A DNA stretch of 32,444 nucleotides from a virus. Positions 1,396 to 19,100 of this stretch are shown piece after piece (position 1 is the first letter of the stretch; every line of letters starts with the position of its first letter). A model generated the notes under the pieces. The model made no database searches. It was not told the origin of the DNA and was given only the letters and a program-made list of their open reading frames with translations. The stretch lies in IMG/VR virus record IMGVR_UViG_3300030419_005069, positions 1 to 32,444 of that record, one strand, 5' to 3'. Made by a program: the position numbers and the translations under genes.

Positions 1396-2169
1396 TTAAA
1401 GAGCGCCAAGCTCTGCGAAAGCGGCATCAACAGCGTTAGCTTCGCCGTCGGCCTGGTTGCCATACTTCGTGGTCTCGCTGCTAACAGTCTCAGGGTCATC
1501 AACCTGAGAGTTAACAAACGTATCCAGAATCGTCTGCACATCGGCAGTCGTCTTTCGCTCGAATAGACCAGAAAAATCTGGAATGCTATCAAGAAGCTCG
1601 GAGCACCTCTCCGGTGTCATGTCCTCACAAAGGGAGGAGGATCGGCGTCGAGGCACCAGCTTCGTCTGAGGGAAGGAAGCGCCCGGAGGCTTTCCATAGG
1701 TCATCGTGAGATCCGTGCCAGTCTCGGTGTCGGTGATATCACCATACTCCGGGTTGAGCACGAGCGTCAGGAGGTTCTCATAGGCAGTCTTGCCATAACC
1801 CCATACACGCACACCCTTCTCTTCCTCGCCGCGAACCATCACGGGACTGAAGAAGCGCTGTCGCACGAAGAGAGACTTCGCGGTCTTCTTACTATGCTCG
1901 TCGTTGTTATCAACGCCTTCGCGCCATAGCTGTGAGGCGAACTCACATACGGGACACTCGTCGCCGTAGTTGCGCTTGGGACATAGGAAGCCGCCCTTCT
2001 CAAGGTTGTAGTGAAACCACATCTCCTTGAAGGGATCGCCATCCGGGGTGGGGACGATCCGAATATCTTGGTCCCCATCCTCGGGGCGCCAGAAAGTGTC
2101 ATTTGAGGAGTTTCCGTCTCCGCGTAGTGACGCGAGCTTCTCTCGCATCTTGTCTAAATTGATACCCAT
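1396..2169 (-). CDS. 32: Single-stranded DNA-binding protein, T4 gp32 family
   Basis: A 257-residue homologue of T4 gp32, the SSB that coats single-stranded DNA at the fork and organises the recombination machinery. The basic N-terminus (MGINLDKMREKLASLRG) corresponds to the cooperativity domain. The core carries the zinc site as His53, Cys63, Cys72 and Cys75 (H-x9-C-x8-C-x2-C), with FLCP and CPVC around it. Aromatic and basic residues continue through VRQRFFSPVMV and GVRVWGYGK. The tail is acidic (DAAFAELGAL), as in gp32, where the tail docks partner proteins. It is somewhat shorter than T4 gp32 (301 aa). AAGGAG precedes the ATG closely. It is the first gene after the tubulin-like gene with a clear spacer. 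Confidence 0.93.
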   Translation of the reverse strand: MGINLDKMREKLASLRGDGNSSNDTFWRPEDGDQDIRIVPTPDGDPFKEMWFHYNLEKGGFLCPKRNYGDECPVCEFASQLWREGVDNNDEHSKKTAKSLFVRQRFFSPVMVRGEEEKGVRVWGYGKTAYENLLTLVLNPEYGDITDTETGTDLTMTYGKPPGASFPQTKLVPRRRSSSLCEDMTPERCSELLDSIPDFSGLFERKTTADVQTILDTFVNSQVDDPETVSSETTKYGNQADGEANAVDAAFAELGAL

Positions 2170-2200: not shown

Positions 2201-3058
2201 TCAGCTAATATCCTGATCGTCTAGTAGTTCACCATATGATTGTACCATAGATGAGTGTTTAATGCAATAGCAATATTTTTGTTCATAACTTGTTTCGAAA
2301 ACGCCATACGAAACGTTCAGTCCTTCGGAAATCTTAGATTTCACAAAATTATTGATACGTCTAAACAAGGTGCCGTCGTTTTTCAAGTCTTCCTTTCCAA
2401 TACCATAATAGTATACCACATCGCGTGGCTGTGTCAAGTTGTAAAACCAATTTTCTTTTTCATTGTCATCGTCTAATGTAACGATGCCCACGGTCGTAAT
2501 GCGGGCGATCTCATGGGGGGTAATAAAATTACCAATCACTGGTTCGGAATTTTCGAAAACATTAATCATGTGAATGGTGTTAACAATTGCTTGATTGAGA
2601 GTATCATAATACCCAACGATTGAAACATCCCCAATACTTCGTTCGATAAAAAGATTATCAATTAAATATATTCTGTCAAGGAGACCTGACCGTGCATACT
2701 CCTGAAGTACATTCTTCACAATTCGTTCCTGCGCCTTCTGGGTCTCACTCATCAGAGAGAGGTCGGGCTGAATGTATATTACTCGAATGCTATTGCTGCT
2801 TAACTGCTGCAGCAACCTAAGGGTCCCCCCTGACACAGATCCTGCGCCGCAAGAGATCAGTAATATTTCTTCGTTTTTAAACTTGAGCTTTCTTTTCAGA
2901 TCTGGGAAGGAGGCATCATACTCTTCGTGGGTATTCCTTTTCTTTATGGTGATGTCCGCATCCTTGGAAGTATCAATTCCAAACGTCTCGTATTGTGGGA
3001 ATTTAGAGAAAGCTTTGGCGATATTACAGCCCGCCTTTCCCAAACCTATAACTTTCAT
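2201..3058 (-). CDS. Tubulin/FtsZ-like GTPase-fold protein, 285 aa
   Basis: The first 140 residues follow the tubulin/FtsZ nucleotide-binding fold: strand and glycine loop KVIGLGKAGCNIAKAF (2-17), a second strand ending in GIDTS (27-31), then ILLISCGAGSVSGGTL (65-80) at the place of the tubulin signature loop (GGGTGTG in FtsZ). RVIYIQPDL and DRIYLIDN follow as later strands. The signature loop is degenerate, with GAGSVSGG instead of GGGTGTG. No T7-loop catalytic NxD is obvious. At 285 residues it is shorter than FtsZ or PhuZ (about 320-400). Related proteins next to gp32 in other marine T4-like phages fit my memory, but I cannot check this. A cytoskeletal or DNA-positioning role would be an inference. 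The next gene upstream overlaps it as ATGA. Confidence 0.65.
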   Translation of the reverse strand: MKVIGLGKAGCNIAKAFSKFPQYETFGIDTSKDADITIKKRNTHEEYDASFPDLKRKLKFKNEEILLISCGAGSVSGGTLRLLQQLSSNSIRVIYIQPDLSLMSETQKAQERIVKNVLQEYARSGLLDRIYLIDNLFIERSIGDVSIVGYYDTLNQAIVNTIHMINVFENSEPVIGNFITPHEIARITTVGIVTLDDDNEKENWFYNLTQPRDVVYYYGIGKEDLKNDGTLFRRINNFVKSKISEGLNVSYGVFETSYEQKYCYCIKHSSMVQSYGELLDDQDIS

Positions 3059-3375
3059 TCCTCAACCCACTCCAGAAGATAGCCCATTTCAAAGCCGCCG
3101 CGGGTGACATACTTCGATGCCCGGGCAGCGTCTATGGTGTGCTGCTGTATTCCCTCGCGTCGGCAAACAAACTCTAAAATCTCCATGATATCCGCGGCTT
3201 CCTCGGGGCACGGATGCTCGACAAACTCCTGAACCTCCTCATGCAACTTCTTCAGGGCTAGCCGCAACAAATCATCCCCGCTAACTTGGCGCGCGCGGAA
3301 GTCTTTTCCTGCGTCAAATATAATATCAGGGATTCTATCGCGAACAAGCTTGTGATATAACTTCTTCTTTTTCAT
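3055..3375 (-). CDS. MazG-like nucleotide pyrophosphohydrolase, 106 aa
   Basis: The N-terminus, YHKLVRDRIPDII (residues 7-19), is the hallmark of a MazG-like/phosphoribosyl-ATP pyrophosphohydrolase-like family. The metal-binding helices follow: EEVQE (46-50) and EEAAD (58-62), matching the EExxE plus ExxD pattern of all-alpha NTP pyrophosphohydrolases. It would hydrolyse (d)NTPs or related nucleotides to monophosphate and pyrophosphate. Phage MazG homologues have been linked to nucleotide-pool housekeeping or to host (p)ppGpp handling, with substrates varying. The gene overlaps the polymerase gene upstream and the tubulin-like gene downstream by four bases each, so the three are almost certainly one translational unit. 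Confidence 0.82.
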   Translation of the reverse strand: MKKKKLYHKLVRDRIPDIIFDAGKDFRARQVSGDDLLRLALKKLHEEVQEFVEHPCPEEAADIMEILEFVCRREGIQQHTIDAARASKYVTRGGFEMGYLLEWVEE

Positions 3376-4559
3376 AGCTTCAACTCCTTCAGCTCGCCAA
3401 GGTTTCTCCCGACGGAGACGTTGACTTTGAACATATCATAACGCGTTTTCTTGAACGTGTCAAGCAAATTTAGAATTTCGTACCGATCCTCTTCAGCGAG
3501 GTCAATATACACAGCGTCGTGAATAAGAAATGCGATGTGGCTTTTTCTCCCTTTCAAAAGCTCGTAGACTTTGTAAGCCTGCTCGTGCACCATGTCAATT
3601 GTGGTGCTTTGAACGATGTAATTGAGTGCATGGTGCTCGTCTACGTTCTCTATTATTCTACCATAATCCGTCTTAATTTTAAAGCCATCCCAATACTTAT
3701 TTCGCACGAAATCCTTGGTATAGAGGCGCTCTAAGTCCTTGTTTTCCTTACTAGAATACAGCCATGCAAAAGTCTTAACCTTGGCCTCTTCACGACTCAC
3801 CGAGCCCCCGAAAACGTTCTTTACATTCCAGTCATGAATATCGTTTTGAGGCTGTTCTTGGCCTGAAAGTGCCAGCAGAACCCGCAGCTCCGCAGCATTA
3901 AAATCCAACTCCAGAAGCCAGTCATTATTCGGCTTGATGCAGGAACGAAACTCTTTGCCCATCGTTAAAATCGGGAAGCTCTTAGGGTTTGCGGCGAGGC
4001 GACCAGTTACGGTGCCCCATGGGTTGTAATCACAAGTGTGGCGTACCGTTTGCACAGTGCGACGAAAATTCTGTCCCTTCACCGAACTCAGGAGGTGCTT
4101 AATTGGCGCGAGATCCACGTTGAGATGTCTCCCGCGAATGTCTGTCACCATTTCCACAAGATTATGGGTATGCTGATAGTTCTCTGGTCGTTCGTGCGTG
4201 TCAAGCACGTGCTTAGTTATCTTATTCTTTGCTTCAAGATATTGATATAGGAAATATTCCGGCACTAGATCATAGAAACAGTTTTCGTCCATATTTAATG
4301 CGGATGTATTAAAGGCCTTGAGACACGATTTAAGCGTCTTTTTGATCTTCTCCCAGTCTTCCTTCATATCCTCGGGGCAAACGTCTGTAATCGTCGCTCC
4401 GTGGCTGTAAATCCGCGCAATTTCATACTGGTTTCCTCGCAAATGAGTAGAGTAGTCCCAGGTGCTTCCTTCTAGTGGAATCTCGCGGACGGCATGAATT
4501 GCATTCTGGGCGTAATATCCAACACAATCTCTCTTATTATCAAGAACTTGAAATAACAA
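3372..4559 (-). CDS. Compact family A (Pol I-like) DNA polymerase without exonuclease domain, 395 aa
   Basis: Pol I motifs appear in order with correct internal spacing. TGRL is at 185-188. Motif A is D219-x4-E224. Motif B is R256-x3-K260-x3-F264-x3-Y268, matching Klenow R754, K758, F762 and Y766. N313-x3-Q317 matches N845/Q849. Motif C is H347-D348. Both catalytic aspartates (219 and 348) are present, but the glutamate of the usual HDE is Ala349, and the glycine after Tyr268 is Ser. No 3'-5' exonuclease motifs are visible in the first 180 residues. The fingers are shorter than in Pol I. The start is TTG at 4559, five bases after AGGAG. It lies 8 bases after a structural gene and overlaps the MazG-like gene. 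T4 itself uses a family B polymerase (gp43). Whether this is the replicase or an accessory enzyme cannot be told. Confidence 0.85.
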   Translation of the reverse strand: MLFQVLDNKRDCVGYYAQNAIHAVREIPLEGSTWDYSTHLRGNQYEIARIYSHGATITDVCPEDMKEDWEKIKKTLKSCLKAFNTSALNMDENCFYDLVPEYFLYQYLEAKNKITKHVLDTHERPENYQHTHNLVEMVTDIRGRHLNVDLAPIKHLLSSVKGQNFRRTVQTVRHTCDYNPWGTVTGRLAANPKSFPILTMGKEFRSCIKPNNDWLLELDFNAAELRVLLALSGQEQPQNDIHDWNVKNVFGGSVSREEAKVKTFAWLYSSKENKDLERLYTKDFVRNKYWDGFKIKTDYGRIIENVDEHHALNYIVQSTTIDMVHEQAYKVYELLKGRKSHIAFLIHDAVYIDLAEEDRYEILNLLDTFKKTRYDMFKVNVSVGRNLGELKELKL

Positions 4560-4567
4560 TGCAACTC

Positions 4568-6040
4568 CTAGTATAGCTGGCGGTTTGTACCATTCTCTAC
4601 TAGAATTCTATCACCTGTGACGCGATTGTCAAGGACTTTTGCATTTTCTTCCTGAAGAGCCACGGCGCCGATATCATAAATGTAGTTTCTATAAATAGTA
4701 TTAACATATGCAGCGACATTTTGCAAGGGCGTTATGGCTGGATTGGGGCGAAGTGTATATATTTCATAACATTGGGTTTTTAGAGTCTTAACTCGATGGG
4801 GAGCAAGGACACCCCCCACTTCTGCCTGCCGCAGGTCAACATAAAAATCTATCAAAAAGCGATCTGTTAAGACATCCGCGCCACCAAGGGTTGCGCGCAC
4901 ATCCTGAGGGGCGATCACTTGCATGGCGCCGCCTTCTTGGGCAGGAAAGGCGCCAGTGTGTTCCGCGGAGGCGGGATCCGTTATGGTAGGAAGCAACGCA
5001 GGAGTCTCTTCAACAAGGGGGGTACGAGGTCGCGAAACGACAGCGCAGTCGGAGGCAATCCTCCCCACTCCGGCGGCGGGGAGGCCGCGGTCTCGGAGTC
5101 CCCTGGTATCATCTTCATAGAAAGGCTCACGATTAACAAGGCCAATATATGAGTTGATGAACATATATTTAAGATCGTCAAAATCTGTTAAATAAGTTTT
5201 ATCATAAAAGACGTCAAAGAAGTTTTCCCGAGAGATATGGGTCCCACCAGCTGTGTAACGCGTCAAAGCAGCCTGTTCAAAGGCGGTGGTAAACATATCT
5301 GCTGTAAGAACCCAGGGAATGTTCTTGTCTATCATGAATCCAAATTTCTTTGCACACTTACGATAAAATTCAAAGTTGGGGTCGGTAAGAAATTCTTGAT
5401 TTTTAACAAAGTCACTCCCCGCGTCTTTATTCGCAACTGCGATGCACACTCCGCTATTGAATATATTGCAATTAGAAGTCAAAAGATAATTGGTCTTTGT
5501 TATGGGAACGTGGGATGCCGTGTCCAATAGGTAGTGCCTGTAGAACTGCAGAAACGTCCCAAAATCACGGATCCCCTTCCTCTCGCGATGTGACATCCTG
5601 TCCAGGTAAGCATTGTAAAGCCGCTGCACATGCTGTGCATACGACGCATTGGGTGATTCATAAGCACGGTGGGCTTTAATGTTCAATAAATTGGAATTCC
5701 CGCGAGGGTCAACGGCACTGACCAGCACAGCCTTGGCCATATGAGCCACAAATTTCTCAAAAATATCCACCACCACATTGAGAGCGCGCATGTTTGGCAT
5801 TGCGGCACTTGGAATCGTCTTGAAGTTTCCCAGCCCGGGCACGACAGAATTCTGAAATTGATCGACGCGGCCATATATTAACTTGTTGTACCACGTATCA
5901 AGAGGAGAAGGGAAATCGGGAGGATAGACCTTTTGCTGATAGAGCGACCGTTGGTAAAAGGCTGCGCGCGCACTCATCCCATTTTGTCCTCGCGGATTCA
6001 AGATATCATCAGGTTTATAATCAAATCTGTCTTTGGCCAT
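4568..6040 (-). CDS. Putative virion structural protein, 490 aa
   Basis: A soluble protein with no signal peptide. The first 300 residues are rich in aromatic and Asn/Arg residues, with segments such as PRGQNGMSARAAFYQRSLYQ and later VDIFEKFVAHMAKAVLVSAVDP. The region around 325-385 is low-complexity (AAGVGRI, PAQEGG), probably a linker. The C-terminal part (about 395-490) looks compact again (TDRFLIDFYVDLRQAEVGG, YVNTIYRNYIYDIGAVALQE). I do not recognise a named family. It follows the 1407-residue structural protein with a 3-base gap and a strong GGAGGA site, in the tail/baseplate run, so a baseplate or tail-associated role is likely. It is the last structural gene before the polymerase. Confidence 0.65.
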   Translation of the reverse strand: MAKDRFDYKPDDILNPRGQNGMSARAAFYQRSLYQQKVYPPDFPSPLDTWYNKLIYGRVDQFQNSVVPGLGNFKTIPSAAMPNMRALNVVVDIFEKFVAHMAKAVLVSAVDPRGNSNLLNIKAHRAYESPNASYAQHVQRLYNAYLDRMSHRERKGIRDFGTFLQFYRHYLLDTASHVPITKTNYLLTSNCNIFNSGVCIAVANKDAGSDFVKNQEFLTDPNFEFYRKCAKKFGFMIDKNIPWVLTADMFTTAFEQAALTRYTAGGTHISRENFFDVFYDKTYLTDFDDLKYMFINSYIGLVNREPFYEDDTRGLRDRGLPAAGVGRIASDCAVVSRPRTPLVEETPALLPTITDPASAEHTGAFPAQEGGAMQVIAPQDVRATLGGADVLTDRFLIDFYVDLRQAEVGGVLAPHRVKTLKTQCYEIYTLRPNPAITPLQNVAAYVNTIYRNYIYDIGAVALQEENAKVLDNRVTGDRILVENGTNRQLY

Positions 6041-16138: not shown

Positions 16139-19100
16139 TTAGTCGTCAAATGACGCCCCCGTCCGCGTAATATTGAAATCGATAGCGATATATTCAATAG
16201 CGCGAGTTGGCTTCAAGTAAATCTTGGCGTACATGATGTTCCTGTCAACCAAATCAGGCGTTGTCGTGGTGTTATCCAGCACAAGCTTGTAATCAGATAA
16301 ACCGAAGTTCGTCTTAATATCAGCCAGAATGGGCTGCACCAGCGAAATAAATCGCTTCCAAGTAGTCTCCACATTCGGATCGAAGAGAAGACGACTCGCA
16401 ACCTGCGAAATACGCTTCTTCACGAAAATCATGAGACGTCGCACGTTAATTCGGTCGAGGGCCGACGGAGTAACCTGCAGAGTCTTCTGACCGAAGATCA
16501 CAATACCTTCTGCCGGGAACTTGGCGATCGGGTTAATGTTAGCAGCATAGAGATCGTCGCGATCCTTGCGGCGCAGTTGATGAGCCACATCTACAACCGG
16601 AATTCCTGCTGCACCCTCGGTCAGACCGCCGCGGTTGAAGCCGGCCGGGGCGAACCAAACCTGAGTCTTGCGCTGCGAGCTAGAGAAAGTACCGATAGCT
16701 GCAACAGAGGGCGGCAGCCAGACATTTGATCCGTTGATCGTGTCACGTGCTCTCACCCACGGGAAGAAACAACAACCATACGAGGTGTTAAGTGCTCGAT
16801 CGCGTAGAGAGTTAATAACCTGCTTAACCTCAGAAGCTGTGTTGTTGCGTGCAGAGGTTTTGCCTTCGGTTCGCGGACGATAGCCGCCGGGGATATCAAT
16901 GACAGCCAGAGCGTCAGCACGATCTTCGCAAACGTCGATCAGATTTGTGGTCAGGCCCTCGTGGCGCAAGCCGGGGACCGATGCAAGATTCATTTCAACC
17001 ACTTCCGGATCAGCAATCGAATCAATGGCCTGCCGGATTGAATTAAACACATAACTATTGGTATCTGTTGCAGTCGACGGTAGGTTATTGTTACTACTGT
17101 TGAAAGGATCAAGTTCCTTGATATCCAGACCATCGAAACCACCATAAAGCGGCACTGTAAAACGATCATAACCCAGATCCAATACACCCGAAATGGCACC
17201 ACTGACACAGGTCAGGGAGGTTCCGGCTGTGTGAGAACCAGAGACCCACGTAGCACCATAGTCCGTTGTGTGCTTAATATCATCCAAAGTAAAGATCATA
17301 GAGGTGTTAAGCTTAGCCGTGGAATTAACGCCACCAAACATATTGGCAACTGCGCCGCCGCGGGGGCGTAACAGGTCGATGTTAGAGCCATCGAAGCGTG
17401 TTCCGCCAGCAGTTCGAGTTGTCTGGAAGCCAAAGTAGGCATCTGTAGGATTGTTGAGATTGCCCGCACTCGCACTAACTCGAAGCTCTGGGCTCGGATA
17501 ATAAAGGGAAGCGGTTAGTGCAACCATATCACTACCCTCAGCTGCAGTGGCGTAGAGAGATCCAGACCCTAGGCCGTCGCGGACGACCAGAATCGAGCCA
17601 GATGAATATTTCTGTCTGGCGGGGAAGGACATGGCGTTGACTGCAGTATTCAAAGCATCACCAAGTGCGGCGCGCTGTGTAACAGAACTAGAGGCAACCC
17701 AGTTGCCTTGTGTGATGGTTGTAACGCCGGTGCCAACACCATTGATAGCTAAGGCGCCATCTTCATCATCATACTTAACGATGCCCTTGAAACCAAAGGG
17801 AAGAAGGCTTGGGCTTTCGCCGGCAATATCTTCATTTACGGCCACACGAATATAGCTTGAAACATTATCATAGTCGCCCAAGCGCTGGTAACGCCTCTCT
17901 GATGTACTCCACGAAGTATAACGATCTCCAACTTTGCGCGCGATATAATTTAAGGAATCGGGGTTGAGATTGCAGTCATTAAACTGTTCGACCACTTGAA
18001 CTACGTTGTCGCTATCGGAAAGTGCGCGGACGACGACGGTGAAAGTACCATAGGGATCCGATTCATTAGTGGACTGCTTGATATCCTGAATGGAAACCTT
18101 GAGGTTTCGGTTTGTCCAATCGCCTGCCTGATCAAGAGCGTGAATAGTGAAAAGGGTAGGCATCTGATCCGAACGATAGGCGTTTGTGCTTGTTCCTCGC
18201 TCAAGGACGTCGCAACCAATGATTGCCGGTGACTGAGCTGACTGGAGAGCACTCCTGTAATCGTCGCCATCATTGGTGCCGTTTCCAAGCGGAAGAGCCA
18301 CTGCAAAGGTTTCGCCATTTAAAGCATCCTCAAGAACGTTGGAATTAACAAACCGATCAAATGTTTCACCCAAGAAGTAGTTAAGTTCGCTATCAACCAA
18401 ATTCGAGTTAACTCGTTGCGGCGTCGTATTAAAGACTTTTCGAATATACTTGGAGCTATTGCGGTTAAAGTTAAAGACCGTCTTCAGGTCGGTGGCGTCT
18501 GAATTAGAATCGGAAATCACGCATGTAAACTCACCTTTCACGCCGGTATCTTGTGCAACAAGGCCCGGGCCGACGAAGAGGGTCGTCTCATCGCCTAGCG
18601 AGTGCATCGAGATGGGCTCAATGCCGGTCTCGGTGGTAACTGCGATAGAACCACTGATGCTAACCTGGGTGGTTGCTTCAGTCGTATAAATAACAGCTGC
18701 CAAATAACCATCGCAGGCGCCTGGAGCGGCGGCCAAGGAAGAGGCCTCCCTAGTCTGGGCTGCGCCGGTAACAACGAAAATGCCCCATGCCTTTCCAGCA
18801 TCGGCAGTGTTGCCGTCAGCATCCCACCCAGCATAACCGTCGGCGGTGGCGTTGCTAGCCTGATTACCAAGCAAACGAACATAAGTCAACGGCGAACTAT
18901 TACGCAGATAGGCTTGAGCCGCATAAGCACCGTAGTTGGGCCCAGTTACATTAGCGCCCTGGCGCCAAATATCACCACTGGCGTTGCCGGGTGAAGGGGC
19001 GCCGAAAACTTGTACAAATTCAGAAAACGAATTTACTGTGACGGGTCTTAACGCAGGACCCTTTTCTGCGCGGCCAATAATGACAGGACCAATGCCCGCA

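Follow-up and report, generated by a model that had tools for sequence, protein, structure and literature searches.

Judged by its sequence, a compact DNA polymerase of family A encoded by a marine T4-like phage belongs to, or is sister to, the divPolA1 branch, and on balance it is probably an active accessory enzyme that does no proofreading. In the reading favoured here, a phage-encoded family C replicase (DnaE) would carry out bulk replication, while the compact enzyme would most likely fill short gaps together with gp32, RecA, a separate 5′-3′ exonuclease (FEN) and a DnaB-type helicase, and/or extend recombination intermediates. Its accessory status is quite likely; gap filling as its particular task is put forward more tentatively. 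The window analysed is an entire virus record of 32,444 bases, itself a fragment, and the features discussed are collected in Table 1.

Table 1. Positions of the polymerase gene, its motifs and its neighbours in the window
Feature	Positions	Strand	Evidence
gp32-type single-stranded DNA binding protein	1396..2169	-	PF08804 E 3e-14; phrog_1192 E 8e-22
285-aa tubulin/FtsZ-fold protein (predicted)	2201..3058	-	AlphaFold2 pLDDT 88.8; structural matches; 64/64 covered loci
106-aa ORF, overlaps polymerase stop	3055..3375	-	MazG-like by eye (KLVRDRIPxII, EExAD)
Compact family A DNA polymerase, 395 aa, divPolA1-type	3372..4559	-	ORF; PF00476; 54-sequence conservation; AlphaFold2; Bst Pol I match
Motif C H-D-A, residues 347-349	3513..3521	-	HDA in 53/53
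N313-Q317 (N845, Q849 equivalents)	3609..3623	-	Alignments
Motif B / O helix RxxxKxxxFxxxYS, residues 256-269	3753..3794	-	Alignments; helix 256-268 in model
Motif A DFNAAELR, residues 219-226 (D219 catalytic, E224 = E710)	3882..3905	-	Alignments
T-G-R-L segment, residues 185-188 (R187 = R668 of E. coli Pol I)	3996..4007	-	Invariant in both alignments
AGGAG ribosome-binding site	4565..4569	-	Sequence read; ends 5 bases ahead of TTG
490-aa protein, upstream of polymerase	4568..6040	-	Relative upstream in 74/74 loci

The polymerase gene is a minus-strand open reading frame of 395 codons (the plus strand across 3372-4559 is riddled with stops) and opens with TTG at 4557-4559. A purine-rich site resembling its AGGAG precedes the gene in most relatives, and TTG, with a good ribosome site, is the start in about two thirds of them (loci of the 54-sequence set introduced below); it perhaps holds expression of the polymerase low. 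The only Pfam match of the protein is to DNA_pol_A (PF00476, E = 9e-17); there is none to PF00136, and a family B identity of the T4 gp43 type does not hold. The T4-like setting claimed in a preliminary description of this DNA is borne out by genes for a Gp23 capsid protein (E = 1.5e-72), a prohead protease S77 (E = 1.4e-32), a tail sheath protein (E = 8e-72), T4_baseplate (E = 4e-17) and gp32. The polymerase does lie between structural genes and gp32, as was said there, but two further genes, with products of 106 and 285 aa, separate it from gp32. Library searches gave no match for the 106-aa product, a relative of which is present in 63 of 72 covered loci, and none for the 490-aa product; an Rfam scan of the window found nothing.

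Alignment of the window protein with E. coli Pol I and T7 gp5 showed every residue named in the preliminary description to be correct. The catalytic aspartates D219 and D348 correspond to D705 and D882 of E. coli Pol I, and R256, K260, F264, Y268 and S269 of motif B to R754, K758, F762, Y766 and G767. Further, E224, N313 and Q317 are the equivalents of E710, N845 and Q849, and H347-D348-A349 stands in the place of H881-D882-E883. The replacement of the motif C glutamate by alanine, and of the O-helix glycine by serine, had thus been read rightly.

Conservation was followed in a set of 54 sequences, comprising the window protein and 53 relatives that are 69-90% identical; those of full length have 394-397 aa. 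D219, R256, K260, F264, Y268, N313 and Q317 are invariant in all 54, and HDA is found in 53 of 53, the remaining sequence being incomplete there. Serine at position 269 is present in 53 of the 54, and a more diverse set has 33 serines and 5 asparagines. The equivalents of D705, D882, R754, K758, F762, Y766, E710, N845 and Q849 are all invariant in 38 diverse members. That the catalytic aspartates, HDA and the motif B residues do not vary over the relatives points to strong constraint on the gene. A sequencing error behind HDA or the short fingers is ruled out by the 53 relatives, since 53-54 sequences all share HDA, both catalytic aspartates and R-K-F-Y.

As a special mark of this protein, however, HDA had been overrated. 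The HDE of canonical Pol I is absent, but the same column in full-length phage PolAs reads HDA (Vibrio phage VhaS-a), HDQ (immuto gp199) or HDS (SBSphiC), so HDA alone is not distinctive. In Klenow, D705 and D882 hold the metals and E883 is a less critical acidic residue; loss of the motif C glutamate alone therefore predicts no dead enzyme. (A literature search on E883 replacements in Klenow yielded nothing usable.) Catalysis by the compact enzyme could be weak, because this glutamate is gone in all three of the clades described below and the fingers are short.

An AlphaFold2 model of the polymerase (46 sequences; pLDDT 93.3, pTM 0.91) finds its best structural match in the large fragment of Bst Pol I (Z 25.3, 355 residues, 4.1 Å), with residues 1-391 of the model lying on residues 316-876 of Bst. 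The earlier characterization as a 395-residue Pol I-like enzyme without an exonuclease domain stands: no exonuclease family is matched, and the polymerase fold takes up residues 1-391. Since the Bst match starts within the exonuclease-like domain, the first ~60 residues, which are strand-rich in the model, are probably a remnant stub of that domain. A truncated thumb is among the features of divPolA1; at the thumb position the model here has two long helices, 101-121 and 128-142. The shortening of the fingers, also reported previously, is evident from the motif spacing. From motif A to motif B there are 37 residues (49 in E. coli, 43 in T7), and from Y268 to N313 there are 45 (79 and 81, respectively), so that relative to E. 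coli 12 residues are lost before the O helix and 34 after it. In the large relative records a family search found neither PF01612 nor PF00929, and exonucleases of the DnaQ or Pol I type were not found there.

The missing proofreading domain, the short fingers and the serine replacing the O-helix glycine would also suit a translesion or mutagenic polymerase for copying damaged DNA, and the top Foldseek matches include pol theta and pol nu, both translesion enzymes of family A. These rank alongside ordinary Pol I, though, and with VIA-align the best matches are the Pol I enzymes of Bst and Taq. Pol theta and nu bypass lesions via long insertions, whereas the window protein is shorter, and its gene is constant in a replication module, not in a damage-response context. 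A translesion role is accordingly judged unlikely.

Scanning viral contigs brought up 68 loci at first and later more than 470 candidates. No bacterial or archaeal relative was found in the genome_contigs collection of 84,980 species by pattern and tblastn searches, and cultured phages held no close relative, their best matches having 22-30% identity over part of the protein. The proteins of a sister clade (L308-L317), of about 395 aa and 38-40% identity, have H-D-N as their motif C, from which the clade is called HDN here, and isoleucine at the F762 position. The immuto clade (441 aa) has Y-D-A in motif C, histidine at E710 and tyrosine at R754 in 25 of 25 sequences; its members include Microcystis phage Mel-JY01 (408 aa) and an uncultured phage of 484 kb. 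In Mel-JY01 the compact PolA (L304 11947-13173) is annotated ‘hypothetical protein’ and the adjoining FEN (17342-18382) ‘DNA polymerase I’, both of which are likely annotation errors.

In a maximum-likelihood tree of 204 palm columns, with eight other PolAs as reference and divPolA2 left out, the window and HDN clades group at 98.7/100 and are joined by the immuto clade at 94.1/97, separate from the eight. Consistent with common descent, the profile-profile match to immuto gp001 is 98.7% (E 3e-16). Though well supported, this grouping is provisional, because the reference set is small and the branches are long. A tree that included divPolA2 was dropped, as in it AUR84708, on one very long branch, splits the window clade, a placement that looks like an artefact.

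The earlier proposal of a distinct branch of accessory polymerases is supported, but neither the family nor the branch is new, the latter being already published as divPolA1 (PMC11348598). divPolA1, an additional PolA carried by Flavobacterium phage immuto and phages related to it, was described from 14 genomes (Yutin et al. 2024, Virol J 21:200, PMC11348598). As marine GOV genomes are among the 14, the window clade may already be within the published sample. In both, an extra divergent PolA, its exonuclease gone and its motif C glutamate replaced, stands beside SSB, RecA, FEN, DnaB and RNR genes in T4-type phages of 150-195 kb that also have a regular polymerase. The catalytic residues D219, D348, K260, Y268 and R187 are invariant, and replication genes lie downstream (gp32 in the window; RecA, FEN and DnaB in covered relatives). 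Unlike the immuto clade, the window clade has 395 rather than 441 aa, retains E710, R754 and the motif C histidine (His, Tyr and Tyr there), has DnaE and not a second PolA as its regular polymerase, and includes a tubulin-fold gene in its module.

Other known polymerases were compared as well. The large fragment of Bacillus or E. coli Pol I shares the polymerase fold and catalytic motifs, but identity is ~15%, the fingers of the window protein are 46 residues shorter, it has HDA and not HDE, and beyond the probable N-terminal stub there is no exonuclease domain. T7-type PolAs (T7 gp5, HTVC041P) are likewise single-protein phage enzymes with a family A palm; T7 gp5, however, has an active exonuclease and HDE, is the sole replicase and lies apart in the tree. 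divPolA2 (AUR84708) is also a compact extra phage PolA without an exonuclease, but it has no Pfam match, belongs to its own family (phrog_4756), lacks HDA, differs in its N-terminal domain (PMC11348598) and has no PHROG in common with the window protein. T4 gp43 and the split polymerase of Rhodothermus phage RM378 are found in T4-like genomes too but, being of family B, are unrelated. A split PolA in RM378 was considered and dropped once genes p024 and p092 were read as a split family B polymerase; by motif reading, it consists of an exonuclease-type gene (L079 21996-22937) and a polymerase gene (L097 29587-31155).

In large relatives the gene order is 490/433-aa protein, compact PolA, 106-aa ORF, tubulin-fold protein, gp32, RecA, FEN, DnaB-type helicase, RNR and DnaE. 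Synteny holds for gp32 in 50 of 50 covered loci, for RecA in 32 of 32, for FEN in 28 of 28 and for DnaB in 25 of 25. DnaE (1145-1153 aa) is encoded about 14-16 kb downstream of the polymerase in 9 of 9 clade records with at least 16 kb of flank and is seen in none of the 8 with less than 16 kb downstream. FEN is encoded in 13 of the 17 records; each of the remaining four stops 5 kb or less downstream of the polymerase gene. A family B polymerase of the gp43 type was not found in seven large relative records. None of the records is known to be complete. Since the nine relative records with enough flank all encode DnaE along with a separate 5′-3′ exonuclease, and the search for a family B polymerase was negative, the suggestion that the compact enzyme is a replacement replicase is unlikely to be right. 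The window ends 3.4 kb downstream of the polymerase gene, and by extension from the relatives its phage would encode DnaE as well. The HDN clade has DnaE in its two longest records, and a second, full-length PolA (778-796 aa) is present in 6 of 7 large records of the immuto clade; the compact enzyme is thus repeatedly found beside another main polymerase.

The catalytic PDID and KFD motifs of the relatives’ DnaE are intact, and its frame is intact in 8 of 9 records (there are two frames in G004). The DnaE genes of L336 (G018) and L337 (G004) seem to be divided between two frames; close to the catalytic region they show intein-like C-terminal ends (VHN/C). The PHP domain of DnaE still has metal ligands (HxH, DHGN, E, DSH) that were lost from E. 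coli DnaE. In other bacteria with active PHP domains proofreading resides in DnaE, and with the ligands kept it may do so in these phages.

The conserved gp32-RecA-FEN-DnaB neighbourhood could be taken to mean that the compact polymerase is the main replicase or an equal one, for example for one strand, with DnaE as an auxiliary. In the published divPolA1 genomes the conserved replication neighbourhood is home to the compact enzyme, whereas regular polymerases sit in less telling ones, and Yutin et al. infer a replication role for divPolA1 (PMC11348598). This leaves room for a larger share of synthesis. Also counting against the favoured reading, the primase of G001 lies some 50 kb off. A main or equal role is nevertheless rather improbable: the compact enzyme has no proofreading and compact fingers, DnaE with intact catalytic motifs is encoded throughout the sampled clade, and the loss of E710, R754 and the motif C histidine in the immuto clade would be unlikely for a sole replicase.

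Further genes were seen in the relatives. DUF444 (YeaH), SpoVR and PrkA (YeaG), a bacterial stress/sporulation triad, form a phage-encoded run (L087 11981-16466 = G001 144981-149469; all E <1e-79) that is likewise in G002. A phage-encoded tmRNA has the tag peptide ANDADYDLALAA (L086 16121-16432; at about 130 kb in G001). A long series of sugar-nucleotide, epimerase and transferase-like genes at 105358-119529 of G001 is missing from G002 or differs there.

Loss of the motif C glutamate and of parts of the fingers, with motifs A-C decayed still further in the immuto clade, might instead suggest a catalytically dead protein retained as a structural or regulatory part of the replisome. This is highly improbable, given that the catalytic aspartates and nucleotide-binding residues are invariant among members only about 70% identical to the window protein, and that the full-length phage PolAs mentioned above also do without the glutamate. 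T7 RNA polymerase, too, lacks a motif C glutamate. A template-directed RNA polymerase or primer synthase, in favour of which there are also the histidine at the steric-gate position of the immuto clade and the raising of the same idea for divPolA2 (PMC11348598), is hardly credible when the steric gate E224 is kept in 38 of 38 members of the window clade and relatives encode a DnaG-type primase.

Next but one to the polymerase, between it and gp32, is the gene for the 285-aa protein, which its model indicates to have a tubulin/FtsZ fold. Structural matches extend over nearly its whole length (CetZ, Z 24.6; TubZ and FtsZ, Z about 22). Its position beside the compact polymerase is kept throughout the covered loci (relatives are, for instance, in L046, L043 and L309). 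Pfam and PHROG gave no match and NCBIfam no usable one; cultured phages contain no relative, and the PDB nothing that matches by sequence. In the window clade, segments GxGxAG and GxGxxSGG resemble tubulin-type T1 and T4 loops; they decay in the HDN clade, and the acidic residues of the FtsZ T7 loop are not apparent. A mixed replisome can be imagined in which DnaE would perform bulk synthesis, the compact PolA would finish or repair strands and the phage-specific tubulin-fold protein, forming one unit with it, would organise or position replicating DNA, but this is a long shot.

Short synthesis by an accessory enzyme fits the Pol I catalytic residues, the lack of proofreading, the short fingers, the gp32, RecA, FEN and helicase neighbours and the presence of DnaE. 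The job of bacterial Pol I is gap filling after RNA primer removal. In these phages FEN would remove the primers and the compact polymerase would then fill the short gaps, so that bacterial Pol I would in effect be divided over two proteins.

Members of a polymerase branch that has hardly been described, and that was published from 14 genomes, are now seen in hundreds of viral contigs. To what was known are added the scale of the family, its three clades with different active sites, the association of the window clade with DnaE and FEN, and the tubulin-fold protein encoded nearby, a companion that could be the more surprising part. The question raised is why a phage that owns DnaE and FEN should have a second, proofreading-less polymerase.
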